A stretch of DNA of 64,000 nucleotides from Nocardioidaceae bacterium (GCA_030447865.1 JAUJOD010000001.1:124001-188000), one strand, 5' to 3'; positions 48,392 through 56,850 are shown, counted from the first letter of the stretch. The notes: generated by a model not told the origin, from the sequence alone. Program-made: numbers and translations.

Positions 48392-49441
48392 TCAGCGGGC
48401 GACCTGCACCTCAGTGCGGGCAAGCCAGGCGGCGCGTGCAGCCAGAGCGGTGTCGGGGAAGTCGCTGACGACACCGTCGACCCCTGCGTCCAGCAGCCGC
48501 CTGACCTCTGCAGCCGCCTCGCCGTGTGCCTCAGGTGGTGCACCGCGCCGGTGGTCGGCCGACAGGAACCGGTTCTCGTTGCGCAGCGTCCAGGCGTACA
48601 CCGCCAACTGCGCGGCGTGTGCCTCAGCGGCCAGGGTCGTCGGCGCGAGCAGGTAACCATCTGGGCTGCGCGGGATCACCAGGTTCTTGTGAACCCCCAC
48701 GCCGAAGGCGTACGTCGAGATCTCGCGCAGGCCACTGGCGGAGATGAGGTCGGCGTACGCCCGGCCGTCGCCCGAGACCATCAGGTCGTACGGCGACCCG
48801 GTGGCGTCAACGAGCTGAACCAACCGCACGTGCGTGCTTCGGGTGAGCCGGCGCAGCACGCCCACTCCGAAGGACTGCACCAGGATCTCGGCGTTCGGTC
48901 GGTCGAGGTGGTGGCGGCGGAGATCCGCGAGCAGCGGCTCATCCAAGGGCAGCCCGATCGCGTCAAAGTGCGCGGGGTGCTTGAGCTCGGGGCACACCCC
49001 GATGACTTCCCCTCGCCGGCGGCTCTCGATCTCGACAAGGCGCAGCAGCTCGTCGAAAGTCGGCACGTGGTGCTTGCCGTCGAAGCGGCAGTTGGCGGGC
49101 CGCAGCTCGGGAAACCGCTCCATTGCCCTGAGGTCTTGCAACTCTGCCAGCGTGAAGTCCTCGGTGAACCATCCCGTCACGGTGCATCCGTCGACGAGCT
49201 TCGTCGTCAACCGGTCGGCAAACTCTGGGTGGGTCGCGACGTCCGTCGTACGCGAGAGCTCGTTCTCGTGCCGGCACACCAGCACCCCGTCCTTGGTGCA
49301 GACCAGGTCGGGCTCGACGTAGTCGGCACCCAGAGCGATGGCGAGCTGGTACGACCCCAGCGTGTGCTCGGGCCGGTAGCCGCAGGCACCGCGGTGACCG
49401 ATCACCAGCGGCGTCCTGTCCAGTCCGGCGGCAATTGTCAC
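48392..49441 (-). CDS. Glycerophosphodiester phosphodiesterase
   Basis: A 349-residue GDPD-family TIM-barrel enzyme releasing glycerol-3-phosphate from glycerophosphodiesters. HRGACGYRPEHT (16-27) supplies two metal/catalytic residues, DYVEPDLVCTKDGVLVCRHE the conserved acidic and histidine residues, and CPELKHP the later metal ligand. No signal peptide is visible, so it is likely cytoplasmic. It is divergent from the ABC exporter pair over 176 bp that contain no gene. Confidence 0.9.
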   Translation of the reverse strand: MTIAAGLDRTPLVIGHRGACGYRPEHTLGSYQLAIALGADYVEPDLVCTKDGVLVCRHENELSRTTDVATHPEFADRLTTKLVDGCTVTGWFTEDFTLAELQDLRAMERFPELRPANCRFDGKHHVPTFDELLRLVEIESRRRGEVIGVCPELKHPAHFDAIGLPLDEPLLADLRRHHLDRPNAEILVQSFGVGVLRRLTRSTHVRLVQLVDATGSPYDLMVSGDGRAYADLISASGLREISTYAFGVGVHKNLVIPRSPDGYLLAPTTLAAEAHAAQLAVYAWTLRNENRFLSADHRRGAPPEAHGEAAAEVRRLLDAGVDGVVSDFPDTALAARAAWLARTEVQVAR

Positions 49442-49617: not shown

Positions 49618-51318
49618 ATGCGCTCCCTCCCCCTGTCCGATCCGGGCATCCCTGACGTCCGCTCGCCTGCCCGCTACCTGTGGTGGGTGACGCGGGGGCA
49701 GTGGCCTACCGTGCTCGGCGGGGTCGCGTTCGGCATCGTGTGGATGGTCGCTCAGTCGGTGATGCCGGCTGTCATCGGCCGGGCCATCGACGAGGGCGTC
49801 GCCGCCGAGGACCTCGGCCGGCTGTGGTTCTGGTCGGCCGCGCTGCTCGGTGTTGGCGGCCTGCAGGCGGTGGCCGGCATCGCACGGCACCGGTTCGCCG
49901 TAGCGAACTGGCTCATCGCGGCCTACCGCACCGTGCAGGTGGTGGCTCGGCATGCGGTACGGCTCGGCGCCACGTTGCCTCGCCGGGTGTCGACAGGTGA
50001 GGTGGTGTCGATCGGCGCCACCGACCTCAGCCACGTCGGCAACGCGATCGAGGTGCTGGGGCGAGGCGCCGGCGCGCTGGTCTCGTTCCTCGTCGTCGCC
50101 GCGATCCTGCTGAGCTCGTCGACGACGCTCGGCCTGGTCGTGCTCATCGGTGTTCCGGCACTGCTGCTGTTGCTCGGACCGCTGCTGAAGCCGCTGCAGA
50201 AGCGCAACCTCGCTCAGCGCGAGATGATGGGCGAGCTCAACTCGCTCGCGTCCGACATCGTCGGCGGGCTGCGCGTCCTGCGCGGCATCGGCGGCGAAGA
50301 GGTGTTCCACCGTAGGTACGTGACCGAGTCGCAGCGCGTCCGGAACTCCGGAGTCGAGGTTGCGAAGATGCAGTCGCTGCTTGACGCCCTGCAGGTGTTC
50401 CTGCCCGGTGTGTTCGTTGTGGTCGTGGTCTGGCTCGGCGCCCGCTTCGCAGTCCAAGGCACGATCACGCCCGGTGAGCTTGTCGCGTTCTACGGCTACT
50501 CGGCGTTCCTGATGATCCCGCTGCGCACCGGCACCGAGGTGGCCAACAAGGTGATCCGCGGGCTGGTGGCCGGGCGACGCATCTGCCGGGTGCTGTCGGT
50601 CGAGCCCGAGGTGCAGGACGTCGGCGCGCGGCAGCAGGCGTCGACGCGAGGAGAGCTCGTCGACGTCCAGTCCGGGCTGCGAGTGCAACCGGGCCGACTG
50701 ACCGCCGTCGTGAGCGACGTACCCGATGAGACGGCCGCGCTAGCCGACCGGCTCGGTCGGTTCGCGGACGGCCCGGCCCTGCTCGACGGAGTGTCGCTGT
50801 CGGACCTCGAGCGTGACTTCGTACGGCGGGCGATTCTGGTCAGCGACTCAGGTGCCACGCTGTTCAGCGGCCGGCTCCGAGACGAGCTCGACGTGCGCGG
50901 CACCGCGACCGACGCCGACCTGTTGGCGGCGATCGCCACGGCGTCGGCCGACGACGTACTGGAGACCCTTGACGACGGCCTCGACGCCCGGGTGGAGGAG
51001 CGCGGGAGGTCGTTCTCCGGAGGGCAGCGGCAGCGGCTGGTGCTGGCTCGCGCCCTGGCCGCCGACCCAGACATCTTGGTGCTGGTCGAGCCAACGTCGG
51101 CGGTTGACGCCCACACCGAGGCACGGATAGCGGCCCGCCTGCACGAGCACCGTCGCGGTCGCACCACGGTGGTGACGACGGCGAGCCCGCTGCTGCTCGA
51201 CCACGCCGACGAGGTGGCCCTGGTCGAGCACGGCTCGGTCGTGCTCAGCGGGACGCACCGAGAGCTCCTCGACGACCCGCGCTACCGCCGGGTCGTGGTG
51301 CGAGGAGAGGACGAATGA
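49618..51318 (+). CDS. ABC exporter subunit A with degenerate ATPase
   Basis: A 566-residue half-transporter: a six-helix exporter membrane domain (about 30-310) and a nucleotide-binding domain (about 345-566). In the NBD the P-loop is replaced by SDVPDETAA (366-374), so Walker A is lost. Walker B has V where the Asp should be (ILVLVEP, V490, though E491 remains), and the H-loop His is absent. The signature FSGGQ (466-470) is intact. It overlaps subunit B by ATGA. With B it should form a heterodimer with one working composite site. The cargo is unknown. Confidence 0.9.
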   Translation: MRSLPLSDPGIPDVRSPARYLWWVTRGQWPTVLGGVAFGIVWMVAQSVMPAVIGRAIDEGVAAEDLGRLWFWSAALLGVGGLQAVAGIARHRFAVANWLIAAYRTVQVVARHAVRLGATLPRRVSTGEVVSIGATDLSHVGNAIEVLGRGAGALVSFLVVAAILLSSSTTLGLVVLIGVPALLLLLGPLLKPLQKRNLAQREMMGELNSLASDIVGGLRVLRGIGGEEVFHRRYVTESQRVRNSGVEVAKMQSLLDALQVFLPGVFVVVVVWLGARFAVQGTITPGELVAFYGYSAFLMIPLRTGTEVANKVIRGLVAGRRICRVLSVEPEVQDVGARQQASTRGELVDVQSGLRVQPGRLTAVVSDVPDETAALADRLGRFADGPALLDGVSLSDLERDFVRRAILVSDSGATLFSGRLRDELDVRGTATDADLLAAIATASADDVLETLDDGLDARVEERGRSFSGGQRQRLVLARALAADPDILVLVEPTSAVDAHTEARIAARLHEHRRGRTTVVTTASPLLLDHADEVALVEHGSVVLSGTHRELLDDPRYRRVVVRGEDE

Positions 51319-53075
51319 AAGAGCTGTTGCCGGTAGCGGACTTCCCGATGGTCCGCCGCTACGCCCGCCGGCTCGCGCGCAACCACCCCCGCGAGCTCGC
51401 CGTCACCGTCACGCTGCACGTGCTCGCAGCGATCGCGGGCCTCGCTGCACCGCGGCTCATCGGCGACCTGGTGCAGGCGGTGTCGCGGGGAACCACCGTG
51501 TCGACCGTCGACAAGACGATCATCGCCATCGCTGCCTTCCTGCTCGCCCAGACGGTGCTGACTCGGTACGCCCGCTACCTCTCCTCCGCGCTCGGTGAGA
51601 AGGTGCTGGCGGAGCTGCGGGAGGACTTCGTCGACCAGGCACTTGACCTGCCGATCAGCACGGTGGAGCGAGCCGGCACGGGTGACCTGTTGACGCGCAC
51701 GTCGCGCGACGTTGAGCAGCTCGGCTGGTCCGTCCGGTACGCCGTACCCGAGACGATCATTGCGCTGGTCACGACCGTCTTCACGATCGGCGCGTGCATC
51801 CTGGTTGGCGCGTGGGTGCTGGTGCCGCTGATCCTCGGTGTGCCGGTGCTGTACGTCGCAACCCGGTGGTACCTGAGGCGGGCCAAGGACGGCTACCTGC
51901 GGGAGTCGGCGTCGTACGCCGCCATCAACGCCAGTCTCGCCGAGACGGCCGAGGGCGCGCGCACCGTCGAGGCGCTCGGTCTCGACAAGCGCCGGCTCGA
52001 CGTGATCGACGCCGACATCGCGGAGTCCTACGCCGCCGAGCGCTACACCCTCTACCTGCGCACTGTCTGGTTCCCCGCCGTCGAGATCGGCTACCTGCTG
52101 CCGACGGTGGTGACGCTGCTGTTCGGTGGATGGCTCTACACCGAGGGGTACGCCGACCTCGGTGACGTCATTGCCGCCACGCTCTATGTACAGGCGCTGA
52201 TCGACCCCGTCGACCGGCTGATCTCGTGGCTCGACGAGCTGCAGATGGGTGCGGCCTCGCTGGCCCGGCTGCTCGGAGTAGCGATTGTTCCCGACGACCG
52301 CACCGCAACCGGCCGGGAGCCCGACGACGAGCGGATCGATGCTGCTCGGGTGCGGTTCGCCTACCACGACGACCGCGACGTGCTGCACGGCGTCGACTTG
52401 CATGTCGACCCCGGTGAGCGGGTCGCGATGGTCGGCCCTTCTGGCGCGGGCAAGTCGACGCTCGGGCGGCTGCTCGCGGGCATCCACCCACCGCGGGCAG
52501 GCACGGTCACGGTTGGCGGCGTCGGGATGACCGAGTTGCCGCTCGACGACCTGCGCGGCCATGTGGCACTGGTGACCCAGGAGCACCACGTGTTCGTCGG
52601 GACGGTCCGGGAGAACCTCGCGCTCGCGATCGACGACATCGCCTCCGACGACCGGCTGTGCAACGCGCTGGCCGCCGTCGACGCGCTGGGCTGGGTGCTT
52701 GCCCTGCCCCAGGGACTGGACACCCGGATCGGCTCCGGCGGTCTGCCGTTGACGCCGGCGCAGGCGCAGCAGATCGCGCTGGCCCGGTTGGTGCTTGCCG
52801 ACCCGCACACGCTCGTGCTCGACGAGGCGACGTCGCTGATCGACCCGCGGTCGGCTCGTCACCTGGAGCGCTCGCTGGCCGCCGTACTGTCCGGACGCAC
52901 CGTCATCGCCATCGCGCACCGGCTCTTCACCGCCCATGACGCCGACCGGGTGGCCGTCGTCGAGGACGGTCGGATCGCAGAGATAGGTGCGCACGACGAC
53001 CTGATCGCCGCCGACGGTTCCTACGCTGCGCTGTGGCAGTCCTGGCACGGTGATAACGAAGGAGCACCGGTGTGA
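51315..53075 (+). CDS. ABC exporter subunit B with complete Walker motifs
   Basis: A 586-residue half-transporter: membrane domain (about 20-310) with the exporter coupling region, then an NBD with Walker A GPSGAGKST (374-382), Walker B VLDEATS (D503, E504) and the H-loop H535 in IAHRL. Its own signature is lost: LTPAQ at 479-483 stands where LSGGQ belongs. Paired with subunit A this gives one complete ATP site (Walker A from B, signature from A) and one site with both elements dead. A possible 23-codon microORF overlaps its stop. Confidence 0.92.
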   Translation: MKELLPVADFPMVRRYARRLARNHPRELAVTVTLHVLAAIAGLAAPRLIGDLVQAVSRGTTVSTVDKTIIAIAAFLLAQTVLTRYARYLSSALGEKVLAELREDFVDQALDLPISTVERAGTGDLLTRTSRDVEQLGWSVRYAVPETIIALVTTVFTIGACILVGAWVLVPLILGVPVLYVATRWYLRRAKDGYLRESASYAAINASLAETAEGARTVEALGLDKRRLDVIDADIAESYAAERYTLYLRTVWFPAVEIGYLLPTVVTLLFGGWLYTEGYADLGDVIAATLYVQALIDPVDRLISWLDELQMGAASLARLLGVAIVPDDRTATGREPDDERIDAARVRFAYHDDRDVLHGVDLHVDPGERVAMVGPSGAGKSTLGRLLAGIHPPRAGTVTVGGVGMTELPLDDLRGHVALVTQEHHVFVGTVRENLALAIDDIASDDRLCNALAAVDALGWVLALPQGLDTRIGSGGLPLTPAQAQQIALARLVLADPHTLVLDEATSLIDPRSARHLERSLAAVLSGRTVIAIAHRLFTAHDADRVAVVEDGRIAEIGAHDDLIAADGSYAALWQSWHGDNEGAPV

Positions 53076-53259: not shown

Positions 53260-53712
53260 ATGGCAAGCGACGAACCCATGGACACCGAGAAGGTCCTCGA
53301 GACCCTGCAGGAGGCGCTACAACTGCAGGCGGAGTCGATACTGACCATGACAACGATGGCAGGGACGTTGCGAGGTGTCGGTGGGGCGGCGGTCAAGACA
53401 AGTCTCCGGTCCTTCGTGCTCGCAGAACTCGAGGACACCTACCTGCTGGTCGAGAAGATGTCGGCGCTGGGCGGCAAGCCTGCAATGAGTACGGCCGCCG
53501 TCGACGTACCCGATGACTCCGACGCCGCGCTCGGCGCGTTGCTCGAGCACGAGGTGAAGGCGGTCGCCGCTCTCCACGAAGTGATTCCGCACTCCGGTCA
53601 GGAGCCGCGGAGTGAGGCGCTGGAGCACCTGCTTGAGCACATCATCATGCGCAAGCAGCAGCAGATCGACTTCCTGTGGCACGCCTCTAACCAGGACGAG
53701 CCACTCGCCTGA
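53260..53712 (+). CDS. Ferritin-like four-helix protein
   Basis: A 150-residue, mostly helical protein. Helical heptads with conserved acidic/His positions appear as EALQLQAESILTMTT, LAELEDTYLLVEKMSALGG, LLEHEVKAVAALHEVIPHSG and LLEHIIMRKQQQIDFLWH. E/xxH pairs in helices 1, 2, 3 and 4 match the diiron ligand pattern of the ferritin/rubrerythrin/DPS superfamily, though I cannot confirm that iron binds. GAGGGAGA precedes ATG 53260. It is followed immediately by an FAD reductase (stop and start share one base), hinting at a redox pair. Confidence 0.65.
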   Translation: MASDEPMDTEKVLETLQEALQLQAESILTMTTMAGTLRGVGGAAVKTSLRSFVLAELEDTYLLVEKMSALGGKPAMSTAAVDVPDDSDAALGALLEHEVKAVAALHEVIPHSGQEPRSEALEHLLEHIIMRKQQQIDFLWHASNQDEPLA

Positions 53713-54878
53713 TGCATGGCAAGGGGCCTGCGGCAGCCGCCGTACAGTCGCTTGCTGTGTGGGACGTCGCGATCGTCGGAGCCGGACCTGCGGGGGCTGC
53801 GGCGGCACTGGCGGTCAAGGCGATGCGGCCGCACTCGAGCGTACTGTTGCTTGACCGGTCGGACTTCCCGCGCGACAAGGCGTGCGGCGATGGCGTCGCC
53901 CCACATGTCCTGGACGTGTTGGCCGGCCTCGGCGTGACCGGTCTGCTCGATGACCGAGTGCCGGTGCACCGGCTGCGCATCGAGCATGAGCGGCACTCGG
54001 TTGAGCGGTCGATGGCCAGACCGGCGTACGTCGTCCCGCGCACCGTTTTCGACAGCCGGCTTGTCGAGGCCGCGGTGGCCACCGGTGTGGTTCTTCGCCG
54101 TCACCGCGTCAGGTCAGTGCGCCGTGCCGGCGGCCGTGTTGTCATCGACGACGACATCGAGGCCGAGGTGGTCATCGGATGTGACGGCGCCCAATCGGCA
54201 GTGCGAAGCTCCCTCGGTCTCGCTGCTGGGCCGCGGGCGCTGGCGATCCGCGGCTACGCGCCGACGCCGCCGCCGCGTAGGGGGCAGCAGGTGATCGTGT
54301 TCGGGCGAGGGAGGCAGCCGGCGTACGCCTGGTCGTTCGATCGCGGCGACGGGTTGGCGAACGTGGGGTACGGCGAGCTGCTGACCGGGCGGCGGCGTGC
54401 GCCGACCCGCGGCCACCTGCTCGCGGAGCTGGAGCGGCTGCTTCCTGGCGCGACGGCGGGCAGTGGCGACTGGCTCGGCCACCATCTCCCTCTCTCGTCG
54501 TGGCGGTGGCGGCACCCGGCCGGCAGGGTGCTGCTCGCCGGCGACGCCGCCGGCCTGGTCAACCCGATGACCGGTGAGGGCATCTACTACGCCGTCGCTA
54601 CCGGGGCGCTGGCCGGGAGGGCTGCGGCCGAGGCGATGGCCGCTGGCGAGCCGACGAGGGCTGGAGCCGCGTATAGGGGATCGGTGCGGGCGCTCTTCGG
54701 TCACCATTACCGGCACACCGCAGCAGCGGCGTGGCTGATATCAGTGGGTGGTGTCGCTGCCGCGGCGGTCCGTGCAGCCGCCCGCGACCAGCGAGTCTTC
54801 GACGACCTCGTGGAGGTCGGCCTCGGCAACGGTCTGCTGACTCACCGGGTCGTTCGTGGCGTGGCCGCCTCCCGCTGA
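53712..54878 (+). CDS. FAD-dependent geranylgeranyl reductase-family oxidoreductase
   Basis: A 388-residue flavoprotein of the geranylgeranyl reductase/PHBH type. It shows the dinucleotide motif VGAGPAGAAAAL (22-33), the DG-like FPRDKACGDGVAPHVLD region, VIGCDGAQSAVR, and the second FAD motif GRVLLAGDAAGLVNPMTGEGIYYA. Relatives reduce isoprenoid chains of lipids or quinones or act in cofactor maturation; the exact substrate is not shown. It starts on the last base of the ferritin-like gene's stop (TGATG-like junction), so the two are coupled. Confidence 0.88.
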   Translation: MHGKGPAAAAVQSLAVWDVAIVGAGPAGAAAALAVKAMRPHSSVLLLDRSDFPRDKACGDGVAPHVLDVLAGLGVTGLLDDRVPVHRLRIEHERHSVERSMARPAYVVPRTVFDSRLVEAAVATGVVLRRHRVRSVRRAGGRVVIDDDIEAEVVIGCDGAQSAVRSSLGLAAGPRALAIRGYAPTPPPRRGQQVIVFGRGRQPAYAWSFDRGDGLANVGYGELLTGRRRAPTRGHLLAELERLLPGATAGSGDWLGHHLPLSSWRWRHPAGRVLLAGDAAGLVNPMTGEGIYYAVATGALAGRAAAEAMAAGEPTRAGAAYRGSVRALFGHHYRHTAAAAWLISVGGVAAAAVRAAARDQRVFDDLVEVGLGNGLLTHRVVRGVAASR

Positions 54879-55123: not shown

Positions 55124-55690
55124 ATGGTGGCGCAACCGGCATCAACCCGCTGGGTGAGGCGCAGCCGCACCGAGCTGTCTGGCGAAGACTCAGACTTCGA
55201 CGAGTTCATGAGTGCTCATTGGGCGTCTCTGTTCAGGACCGCGTACCTGCTCACTGGCGACTCCCACCTCGCCGAAGACCTGCTGCAAACGGCGTTCGCG
55301 AAGGTGTACCTGTCCTGGTCGAAGATCTCGACGATGGGACAACCAGTGGCCTACACCCGCAAGATCGTGACCAACCAAGCCATGTCATGGTGGCGCCGTA
55401 GTTCCTCCTCTGAGGTGCCCAGCCTCGACATCTCCGGCGACCACCACGCCGGGCATGAGGACCAGGTGACCCAGGCCAGCGTCGTGTGGGCCGCCCTCGC
55501 GACGCTGCCGACCAAGCAGCGCGCCGTCATGGTGCTGCGCTACTACGAAGACCTCAGCGAAGCCGAGATCGCCGACACGCTGGGCATCAGCACCGGCTCG
55601 GTCAAGTCTCATGCCTCGGCTGCCAGAACGACGCTCGCGCAACGTCTCGGCGCCCTCGAGCACGACCCGACCAACGGAGACCCCGCATGA
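55124..55690 (+). CDS. ECF sigma factor, SigE family
   Basis: A 188-residue extracytoplasmic-function sigma factor. Region 2 runs DFDEFMSAHWASLFRTAYLLTGDSHLAEDLLQTAFAKVYLSWSKIS (about 24-68), and region 4 is LPTKQRAVMVLRYYEDLSEAEIADTLGISTGSVKSHASAA (about 127-166) with the helix-turn-helix that reads the -35 element. It overlaps a membrane protein gene by ATGA, the usual sigma/anti-sigma arrangement; an in-frame GTG 60 nt upstream is possible. The signal it answers is unknown. Confidence 0.92.
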   Translation: MVAQPASTRWVRRSRTELSGEDSDFDEFMSAHWASLFRTAYLLTGDSHLAEDLLQTAFAKVYLSWSKISTMGQPVAYTRKIVTNQAMSWWRRSSSSEVPSLDISGDHHAGHEDQVTQASVVWAALATLPTKQRAVMVLRYYEDLSEAEIADTLGISTGSVKSHASAARTTLAQRLGALEHDPTNGDPA

Positions 55691-56850
55691 ACATCGACGA
55701 GATCCTGCGTACGTCGGTCGACGAGCTCGCCCACGGCGTCACCCCCCCGCCCCCTAACCCGGACGGTGTCCGAGCCCGAGCCCGCACCACCCGACGCCGG
55801 CAATGGGTCGCCGCAGCAGCCGGCACGGCAGCAGTCGTGGTCGGCGGCGCAGCGATCACCACCGGTCTCGCCGACCAAGGAGCCACCCCCCCAGCCAACA
55901 ACCCGACACCAGTTGACCCGACGCGTGACCCTTCCGCCGTTGTCCGGACGAACGAGTCGGCCATCTGGGGTGAAGCGAAGGCCCTTCATTTCGGGTCGAG
56001 CCAGGTGCCTGTGCCCGACCAGGTCTTCGGGTTTGGGCTGGTCGAGGACGGAGTGGTTTATACGTCGAAAGACCGCGGCTCGAAAGTCGTGTATCAGCCA
56101 AGCGATGGCAGCGACCCCACTCAGATCGGCGATAACGCCCAGCTGGCCCCCGCAGGCGATCCCACGTCCGGGCTGGTGTCATGGGTCGAGGCACAAGGCA
56201 AAGACGGCTCCCTTGTGGTGTTCGACACCGCCACCGGTCAAGAGGCAGCGCGAACCAGTGTGCCCCCCGCTCTGCGCCCGCAAGACAACATCATCTTCCC
56301 AGGGATCAGCCCGGTGATTTCGGTGTCCTCCACCGCGGTCTATTACTACGGGCGCGATGAGGAAATTTGGGTGTACCGCTGGCCTGAAGGTGGCGAACCA
56401 AAGTCGACCGGTCAGACCAAGGATGAGCTTGTCGACGTCGCAGGCGGTGTGATCGCGCAGGCAGGAACCGAAGAAGGAACCGTGGAGTTTGTCACCGCCA
56501 AGGGCACGGTGCTGGCTACTGACCTCCCGCCCGGTGGCTACCTGAGCCCTGATGGCAGCCTGTTTGCGAGCGTCGAGGGAGAGTTACCCGGCAATGCTCG
56601 GCCCGGGGTTGTGGTGTCCGATACCAGCACCGGTGAGACCACCAAGCTCGATCTCAACAGTGCGGGAGTGAAGCGTGTCTATCCGTTCGCAGTTGGGTGG
56701 TCCAGCAACGACACCCTGATGGTCAAGAACAACAGCGGACTGCGAGTTGGTCAGGTGATCGCCTGTACCGTGTCGGCGGGCAAGTGCGATGTGGTTGCCT
56801 CCGTGGACTCCGACAGACTGAGCTTCTTCTTGACCGTCCCGTTGAGTTGA
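55687..56850 (+). CDS. Membrane protein partner of the sigma factor (putative anti-sigma / beta-propeller)
   Basis: A 387-residue protein. A short N-terminal cytoplasmic part (MNIDEILRTSVDELAHGV, Pro-rich and Arg-rich to about 38) precedes one membrane helix (about 39-60). The large extracellular portion is made of repeated beta strands (VVYTSKDRGSKVVYQPSDGSDP; VFDTATGQEAARTSVPP; TVEFVTAKGTVLATDLPPGGYLSPDGSLFASVEG), like a WD40/TolB-type propeller. The topology (cytoplasmic helix, one TM, extracellular sensor) and coupling to an ECF sigma suggest an anti-sigma factor, but I see no ZAS zinc motif, so this is inference. Confidence 0.7.
   Translation: MNIDEILRTSVDELAHGVTPPPPNPDGVRARARTTRRRQWVAAAAGTAAVVVGGAAITTGLADQGATPPANNPTPVDPTRDPSAVVRTNESAIWGEAKALHFGSSQVPVPDQVFGFGLVEDGVVYTSKDRGSKVVYQPSDGSDPTQIGDNAQLAPAGDPTSGLVSWVEAQGKDGSLVVFDTATGQEAARTSVPPALRPQDNIIFPGISPVISVSSTAVYYYGRDEEIWVYRWPEGGEPKSTGQTKDELVDVAGGVIAQAGTEEGTVEFVTAKGTVLATDLPPGGYLSPDGSLFASVEGELPGNARPGVVVSDTSTGETTKLDLNSAGVKRVYPFAVGWSSNDTLMVKNNSGLRVGQVIACTVSAGKCDVVASVDSDRLSFFLTVPLS

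Follow-up and report, generated by a model that had tools for sequence, protein, structure and literature searches.

In the window, the whole 64,000-nucleotide stretch of DNA analyzed here, two overlapping genes encode the two halves of a type IV ABC exporter, subunits A and B, which are likely to form an obligate heterodimer with a single working composite ATP site. The gene for subunit A (49618-51318, + strand) encodes a 566-residue half-transporter, a transmembrane domain (TMD) followed by a nucleotide-binding domain (NBD), in which the nucleotide-binding half-site is obliterated. The gene for subunit B (51315-53075, +) encodes a 586-residue half-transporter with an intact nucleotide-binding half-site and a dead signature. 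The stop codon of A and the start codon of B share the sequence ATGA (51315-51318, +), an overlap that likely couples their translation. Pfam places ABC_membrane and ABC_tran domains above cut-off in both proteins, TMD before NBD in a single chain as in the halves of type IV (ABCB-like) exporters, and the Pfam matches are present in all 34 A members checked. The ABC_tran profile aligns to A only from profile position 40 of 137 onward, because the P-loop part of A is unrecognizable. Both reading frames are open throughout.

Subunit A has lost nearly every motif with which an NBD binds its own nucleotide. The β1-β2/A-loop region is truncated to GELVDVQSG (50650-50676, +) and lacks the A-loop aromatic; the A-loop column is a gap in 113 of 114 family members and a Tyr in none, and the spacing from TMD to P-loop is about 11 residues shorter in A than in B. 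The P-loop equivalent, SDVPDETAA (50713-50739, +), contains no Walker A motif (GxxGxGK[ST]; Lys in 0/114) and is net acidic, with a mean net charge over the nine-residue segment of −1.8 in A and +1 in B. No Gln is found in the aligned Q-loop equivalent, VSDSG (50839-50853, +), where the exact register is ambiguous and a Gln lies two positions ahead of the column in 18 of 114 A proteins. In the Walker B segment, ILVLVE (51073-51090, +; stretch LVLVEP), the Asp is replaced by Val490 and Glu491 is kept; across the family the Asp column is V in 67, D in 24, H in 11 and I in 5, and the Glu column is Glu in 93/114 and Asp in 20/114. The H-loop position is occupied by Ala522-Ser523 (TTASPLLL; 51181-51186, +), with Ser523 in 114/114, and a His was not seen at either H-loop column in the 114 aligned pairs. 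The signature FSGGQ (51013-51027, +; SGG in 114/114), which would serve the ATP of B, and the D-loop SAVDAHTE (51097-51120, +; Asp in 114/114) are intact.

Subunit B has the opposite inventory. It retains the A-loop Tyr350 (52362-52364, +), Walker A GPSGAGKST (52434-52460, +; Lys), Q-loop Gln422 in VTQEHH (52578-52580, +), Walker B TLVLDE (LVLDEA; 52809-52826, +; Asp-Glu) and H-loop His535 in AIAHRL (52917-52919, +), each in 114/114. Where LSGGQ is expected, B reads LTPAQ (52749-52763, +), the commonest form at this position (34/114) in a family in which SGG is found in 0/114. The D-loop of B, SLID (52833-52844, +; Asp in 97/114), faces the dead site.

The cis motifs of one NBD in a head-to-tail NBD dimer pair with the signature and D-loop of its partner, and all of the losses therefore fall on one composite site. 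The initial annotation had called the losses complementary and assigned them to a single composite site, and ABC anatomy applied to the sequence agrees, placing the cis losses of A opposite the signature loss of B. Its description of B, with Walker motifs and H-loop kept and LSGGQ lost, is likewise borne out. For A, the reported losses of Walker A, the Walker B Asp and the H-loop are present in the sequence; the LSGGQ that A was said to keep is really FSGGQ, with the canonical S-G-G-Q, and the losses of the A-loop aromatic and the Q-loop Gln had been overlooked. As in TM287/288 and MsRv1273c/72c, the two subunits are encoded by adjacent, different half-transporter genes, and one composite site is complete, built from the Walker motifs of B and the signature of A. 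We infer from these motifs that the working site would be "perfect" in catalysis. Neither an A-A nor a B-B homodimer would contain a complete site (Walker A Lys in 0/114 A proteins; SGG in 0/114 B proteins).

Relatives were drawn from 58 related genomes, 297 genomes of the class, a named genome collection and 246 genomes of the phylum. Of the 297 class genomes, 133 contain a match to A with an E-value of 1e-60 or lower; a few of the weakest matches may be ordinary exporters. Among the named hosts are Terrabacter, Micromonospora, Phycicoccus, Cellulomonas, Streptomyces, Kribbella, Actinoplanes, Glycomyces and Actinomyces. B lies directly downstream of A at every locus where A was fetched. The source genome itself has a second A/B pair with the same losses (L072; G000:C3:1282621-1284435, with B downstream), which shares about 45% and 55% identity with the window pair. 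The motif census comprised 114 aligned A/B pairs; 35 first and 34 second subunits of ordinary heterodimers served as controls. Every one of the 114 A proteins lacks the Walker A Lys, the A-loop Tyr and the H-loop His and retains SGG and the D-loop Asp. The Walker B Asp, by contrast, is still present in 24/114, which suggests that it was lost later, or under looser constraint, than the P-loop, A-loop and H-loop. Among the controls, the Walker A Lys is present in 35/35 first subunits, the Walker B Glu is replaced by Asp in 32/35, and most second subunits (23/34) carry Ala in place of the first signature Gly.

Conservation without exception in 114 actinobacterial pumps indicates that the lopsided A/B design is a real and old variant. 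The initial annotation had proposed comparing the losses across relatives, and in these 114 pairs the homologues do not retain intact motifs. Chance, sequencing error and a pseudogene are ruled out by the 114/114 conservation together with the dN/dS values, which are about 0.03-0.19 for the A and B genes and about 0.08-0.17 for the NBD of A (pairwise against four relatives). The probability that the losses reflect sequencing or assembly errors, or gene decay, is negligible: the same motif states recur in 113 further pairs, one of them from a congener that is 98% identical, dN/dS is far below 1, the frames are open, and no point in favor of this explanation was found.

Conservation is distributed within the two proteins as a single-site model predicts. 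In A, the signature lies at the 89th and the D-loop at the 92nd conservation percentile, and the P-loop and Q-loop equivalents are below average (35th and 40th); in B, Walker A, the Q-loop, Walker B and the H-loop lie at the 84-87th. This pattern, high on the working half-sites and low on the P-loop and Q-loop equivalents of A, supports a single working site, as do the census with its controls, the invariable position of B after A, the ATGA overlap and the low dN/dS. So does the contrast between the D-loops, the Asp being lost on the dead side in 17/114 B proteins and kept in 114/114 A proteins. A rather different arrangement could be imagined in which A is regulatory or decaying and the true partner of B is another half-transporter that supplies LSGGQ, and other exporter halves are indeed present in the genome. 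We consider this very improbable, given that A always accompanies B, that both are under purifying selection and that the signature and D-loop are among the most conserved parts of A. Evolutionary distances of A and B are also correlated (mirror-tree r 0.96), a value inflated by shared phylogeny and not relied on here.

The non-Asp D-loops of B include those of a sister clade with AEAG at this position (L139-L145, L147, L149, L150, L154, L185, L186, L077 and L078). In these loci A mostly reads HDPTTAVDAVTE, and B reads DEATAEAGSAG, so that the D-loop Asp facing the dead site has gone as well. This is a later loss, again on the dead side.

The AlphaFold2 (AF2) monomer models (mean pLDDT 89.1 for A and 86.4 for B) bear on whether the dead site could hold nucleotide. 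In B, a strand (369-373) is followed by a six-residue P-loop and a helix (380-387). In A, a strand (361-366) is followed by two residues and then a helix (369-379), so that the P-loop position is helical, and a phosphate nest of the P-loop type would have no space in the predicted secondary structure; a collapsed P-loop in A is a prediction of the model. The A-loop hairpin is modeled as two 11-residue strands in B (341-351 and 354-364) and as two three-residue strands in A (347-349 and 354-356). The helical and acidic P-loop segment, together with the truncated A-loop hairpin, suggests that the dead site probably holds no ATP. With both the P-loop and the A-loop absent, ATP binding itself, beyond hydrolysis, has probably been lost there.

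The main rival is that ATP is still bound at the dead site, in the style of Pdr5 or of MsRv1273c/72c. The Pdr5- or TAP-like form of this proposal, in which the degenerate site binds ATP non-hydrolytically through other residues of A and B and uses it as a molecular glue over many cycles, seems to us unlikely, although real evidence can be set beside it. Ordinary relatives such as MsRv1273c/72c bind ATP at both sites (PMC12038006), and Pdr5, with Lys to Cys, Glu to Asn and His to Tyr changes and the signature LNVEQ, still holds nucleotide (PMC8421411, PMC7756269). Loss of motifs is consequently no proof of an empty site, since the very altered site of Pdr5 still binds nucleotide (PMC8421411). 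The Walker B Glu kept in most A members favors bound ATP and, with the Walker B Asp found in 24/114, counts against an empty site. Walker B also has a structural role. Set against this rival, the precedents for an ATP glue largely keep the P-loop, whereas across the A family the glycines and Lys of the P-loop have disappeared along with the A-loop, and the P-loop segment of A is acidic and modeled as a helix.

We somewhat favor, for this actinobacterial subfamily, a cycle that uses one ATP and in which the second site is permanently nucleotide-free, the P-loop-turned-helix of A acting as a fixed hinge against LTPAQ. The working site would take its A-loop, Walker A and B motifs, Q-loop and H-loop from B and receive FSGGQ and the D-loop in trans from A. 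The opposite site, stripped on both faces (no P-loop or A-loop from A, no signature from B), would most likely be empty of nucleotide and serve as a constant protein-protein hinge. B would bind ATP, which the FSGGQ and D-loop of A would clamp; in each cycle a single ATP would draw the dimer shut on the side of the B Walker motifs and A signature, switching the transporter from inward- to outward-facing. Hydrolysis via Glu504 and His535 of B would reset it while NBD contact persisted at the dead side. We infer the heterodimer geometry, the one ATP per cycle, the constant-contact hinge and the direction of export. The middling conservation of LTPAQ (69th percentile) suggests that the dead face may be more than a passive hinge.

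The structural matches of A and B are full-length. The best match of A in the PDB is MsRv1273c/72c chain A (Z 27.9, rmsd 8.1 over 551 residues, 25% identity), a top Z score tied with TM287 and others, and that of B is TmrAB chain A (Z 30.8), with many ties. No solved structure of a family member is apparent by sequence, the best PDB scores being those of ordinary exporters. IrtAB and YbtPQ, importers with an exporter fold, are also among the matches of both subunits, and the fold is compatible with either direction. Inward transport in the manner of these systems is nevertheless improbable in our estimation, as most structural matches are exporters and no import genes were recognized among the window neighbors tested, an argument that is weak either way.

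A glycerophosphodiester phosphodiesterase (GDPD) gene (48392-49441, − strand) is divergent from A and adjoins only 12 of 115 family loci. Downstream of B are genes for a small ferritin-like protein and then a geranylgeranyl-reductase-like FAD protein (53260-54878, +), which are not conserved beside the A/B family. Beyond them, as judged by eye, are an ECF sigma factor-like ORF and then a larger ORF with one hydrophobic stretch near its start (55124-56850, +), possibly a sigma/anti-sigma pair. None of the four window neighbors tested other than GDPD recurs widely beside family loci, and naming a substrate from the neighbors was ruled out on the basis of these counts.

In a joint tree, A (n = 114, support 1.0) and B (n = 114, support 0.998) are each monophyletic. 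Both remain so in TMD-only and NBD-only trees, so the altered NBD does not account for their monophyly. In the joint tree B clusters with second subunits from ordinary heterodimers (support 0.991), a grouping that disappears in the TMD-only tree, and the trees do not settle where A falls with respect to ordinary first subunits. The main losses seem, from the trees, to trace to one ancestral event with a single origin. The complementarity has thus been seen essentially once, and the argument from it draws its strength from conservation, not from repeated independent losses.

A sharp boundary separates the family from ordinary degenerate-site exporters. Walker A is absent wherever A-profile scores of at least 408 bits were inspected and normal in 11/11 inspected pairs scoring below 395 bits, and no half-way form with a partly lost P-loop was seen in the 246 phylum genomes or at 20 loci around the score boundary. 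Family members also occur in Actinomycetota outside the class (G356, G489, G524, G537, G436, G411 and G452, among others). With the Walker A Lys and A-loop Tyr in 0/114 A proteins, the family is, by its motifs, a derived subfamily of the heterodimeric exporters rather than a typical member. No paper naming this subfamily was found in the open-access literature, a result that does not prove absence.

Six actinobacterial exporters (L161, L163, L179, L181, L189 and L196) carry both halves in one ORF, with LDDATSAVD and an intact LSGGQ in the first half and no SGG in the second. Five of them were rejected as natural A-B fusions, being of the ordinary kind with Walker A in both halves; the exception, L161 (Klenkia), has no GK[ST][ST] match in its first half. 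Judged by these motifs, the five are, and L161 may be, single-chain versions of the ordinary degenerate kind.

Compared with known systems, A/B is nearest in organization to the heterodimeric type IV exporters of bacteria in which one site is impaired, TM287/288, BmrCD and TmrAB, and to the mycobacterial MsRv1273c/72c (Rv1273c/Rv1272c), a heterodimer that also has degenerate cis motifs in the first subunit and consensus motifs in the second. In these ordinary systems few residues are changed and, where structures are solved, ATP is found at both sites. The degenerate NBD of the TM287/288 kind retains its P-loop, and the Walker A Lys is present in all 35 ordinary pairs sampled. In MsRv1273c/72c the highlighted changes are Walker B Glu to Asp and switch-loop His to Gln, and Walker A and the A-loop, both missing from A, are present, with ATP at both sites (PMC12038006). 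PMC7544095 gives replacement of the catalytic Walker B Glu in subunit 1 as the hallmark of bacterial degenerate exporters, from which A departs in having Glu491 where 32/35 controls have Asp. ABCG5/G8 resembles A/B in combining signature and Walker A changes in its degenerate site (PMC7756269), but the Walker A change is only Lys to Arg and the fold is that of ABCG. CydDC is also a heterodimer in which the CydD site is called degenerate and only the ATP of CydC is hydrolyzed, although Walker A and signature segments are listed for both subunits (PMC13337084).

Whether asymmetric ABC exporters require ATP at the degenerate site as a glue is under debate (PMC7756269, PMC12038006), and the question has been approached with mutants because the characterized cases described still bind nucleotide there. 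In the A/B family, selection seems to have preserved a natural experiment: the machine is retained although its second pocket has been removed outright, which offers a test of whether a single ATP can drive pumps of this kind. Should the dead site prove empty, a single ATP would suffice for the power stroke, and protein contacts could take over the role of glue.

Closest in logic is the yeast ABCG transporter Pdr5 (PDR), in which Walker A, Walker B, the H-loop and the partner signature (LNVEQ) are already altered together at one site and the D-loop is preserved (PMC7756269, PMC8421411). The initial annotation had described the A/B losses as more extreme than usual, which holds against TM287/288, BmrCD, TmrAB and MsRv1273c/72c but must be qualified in view of Pdr5. 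Pdr5 is, however, a full-length single chain of another subfamily with reversed topology, NBD before TMD, so that the TMD-first half-transporters A and B fall outside this group and resemble it in working only. The sole change described in its Walker A motif is replacement of the Lys, and the site continues to bind nucleotide (PMC7756269, PMC8421411); what is new in A relative to Pdr5 is that the P-loop and the A-loop are absent altogether.
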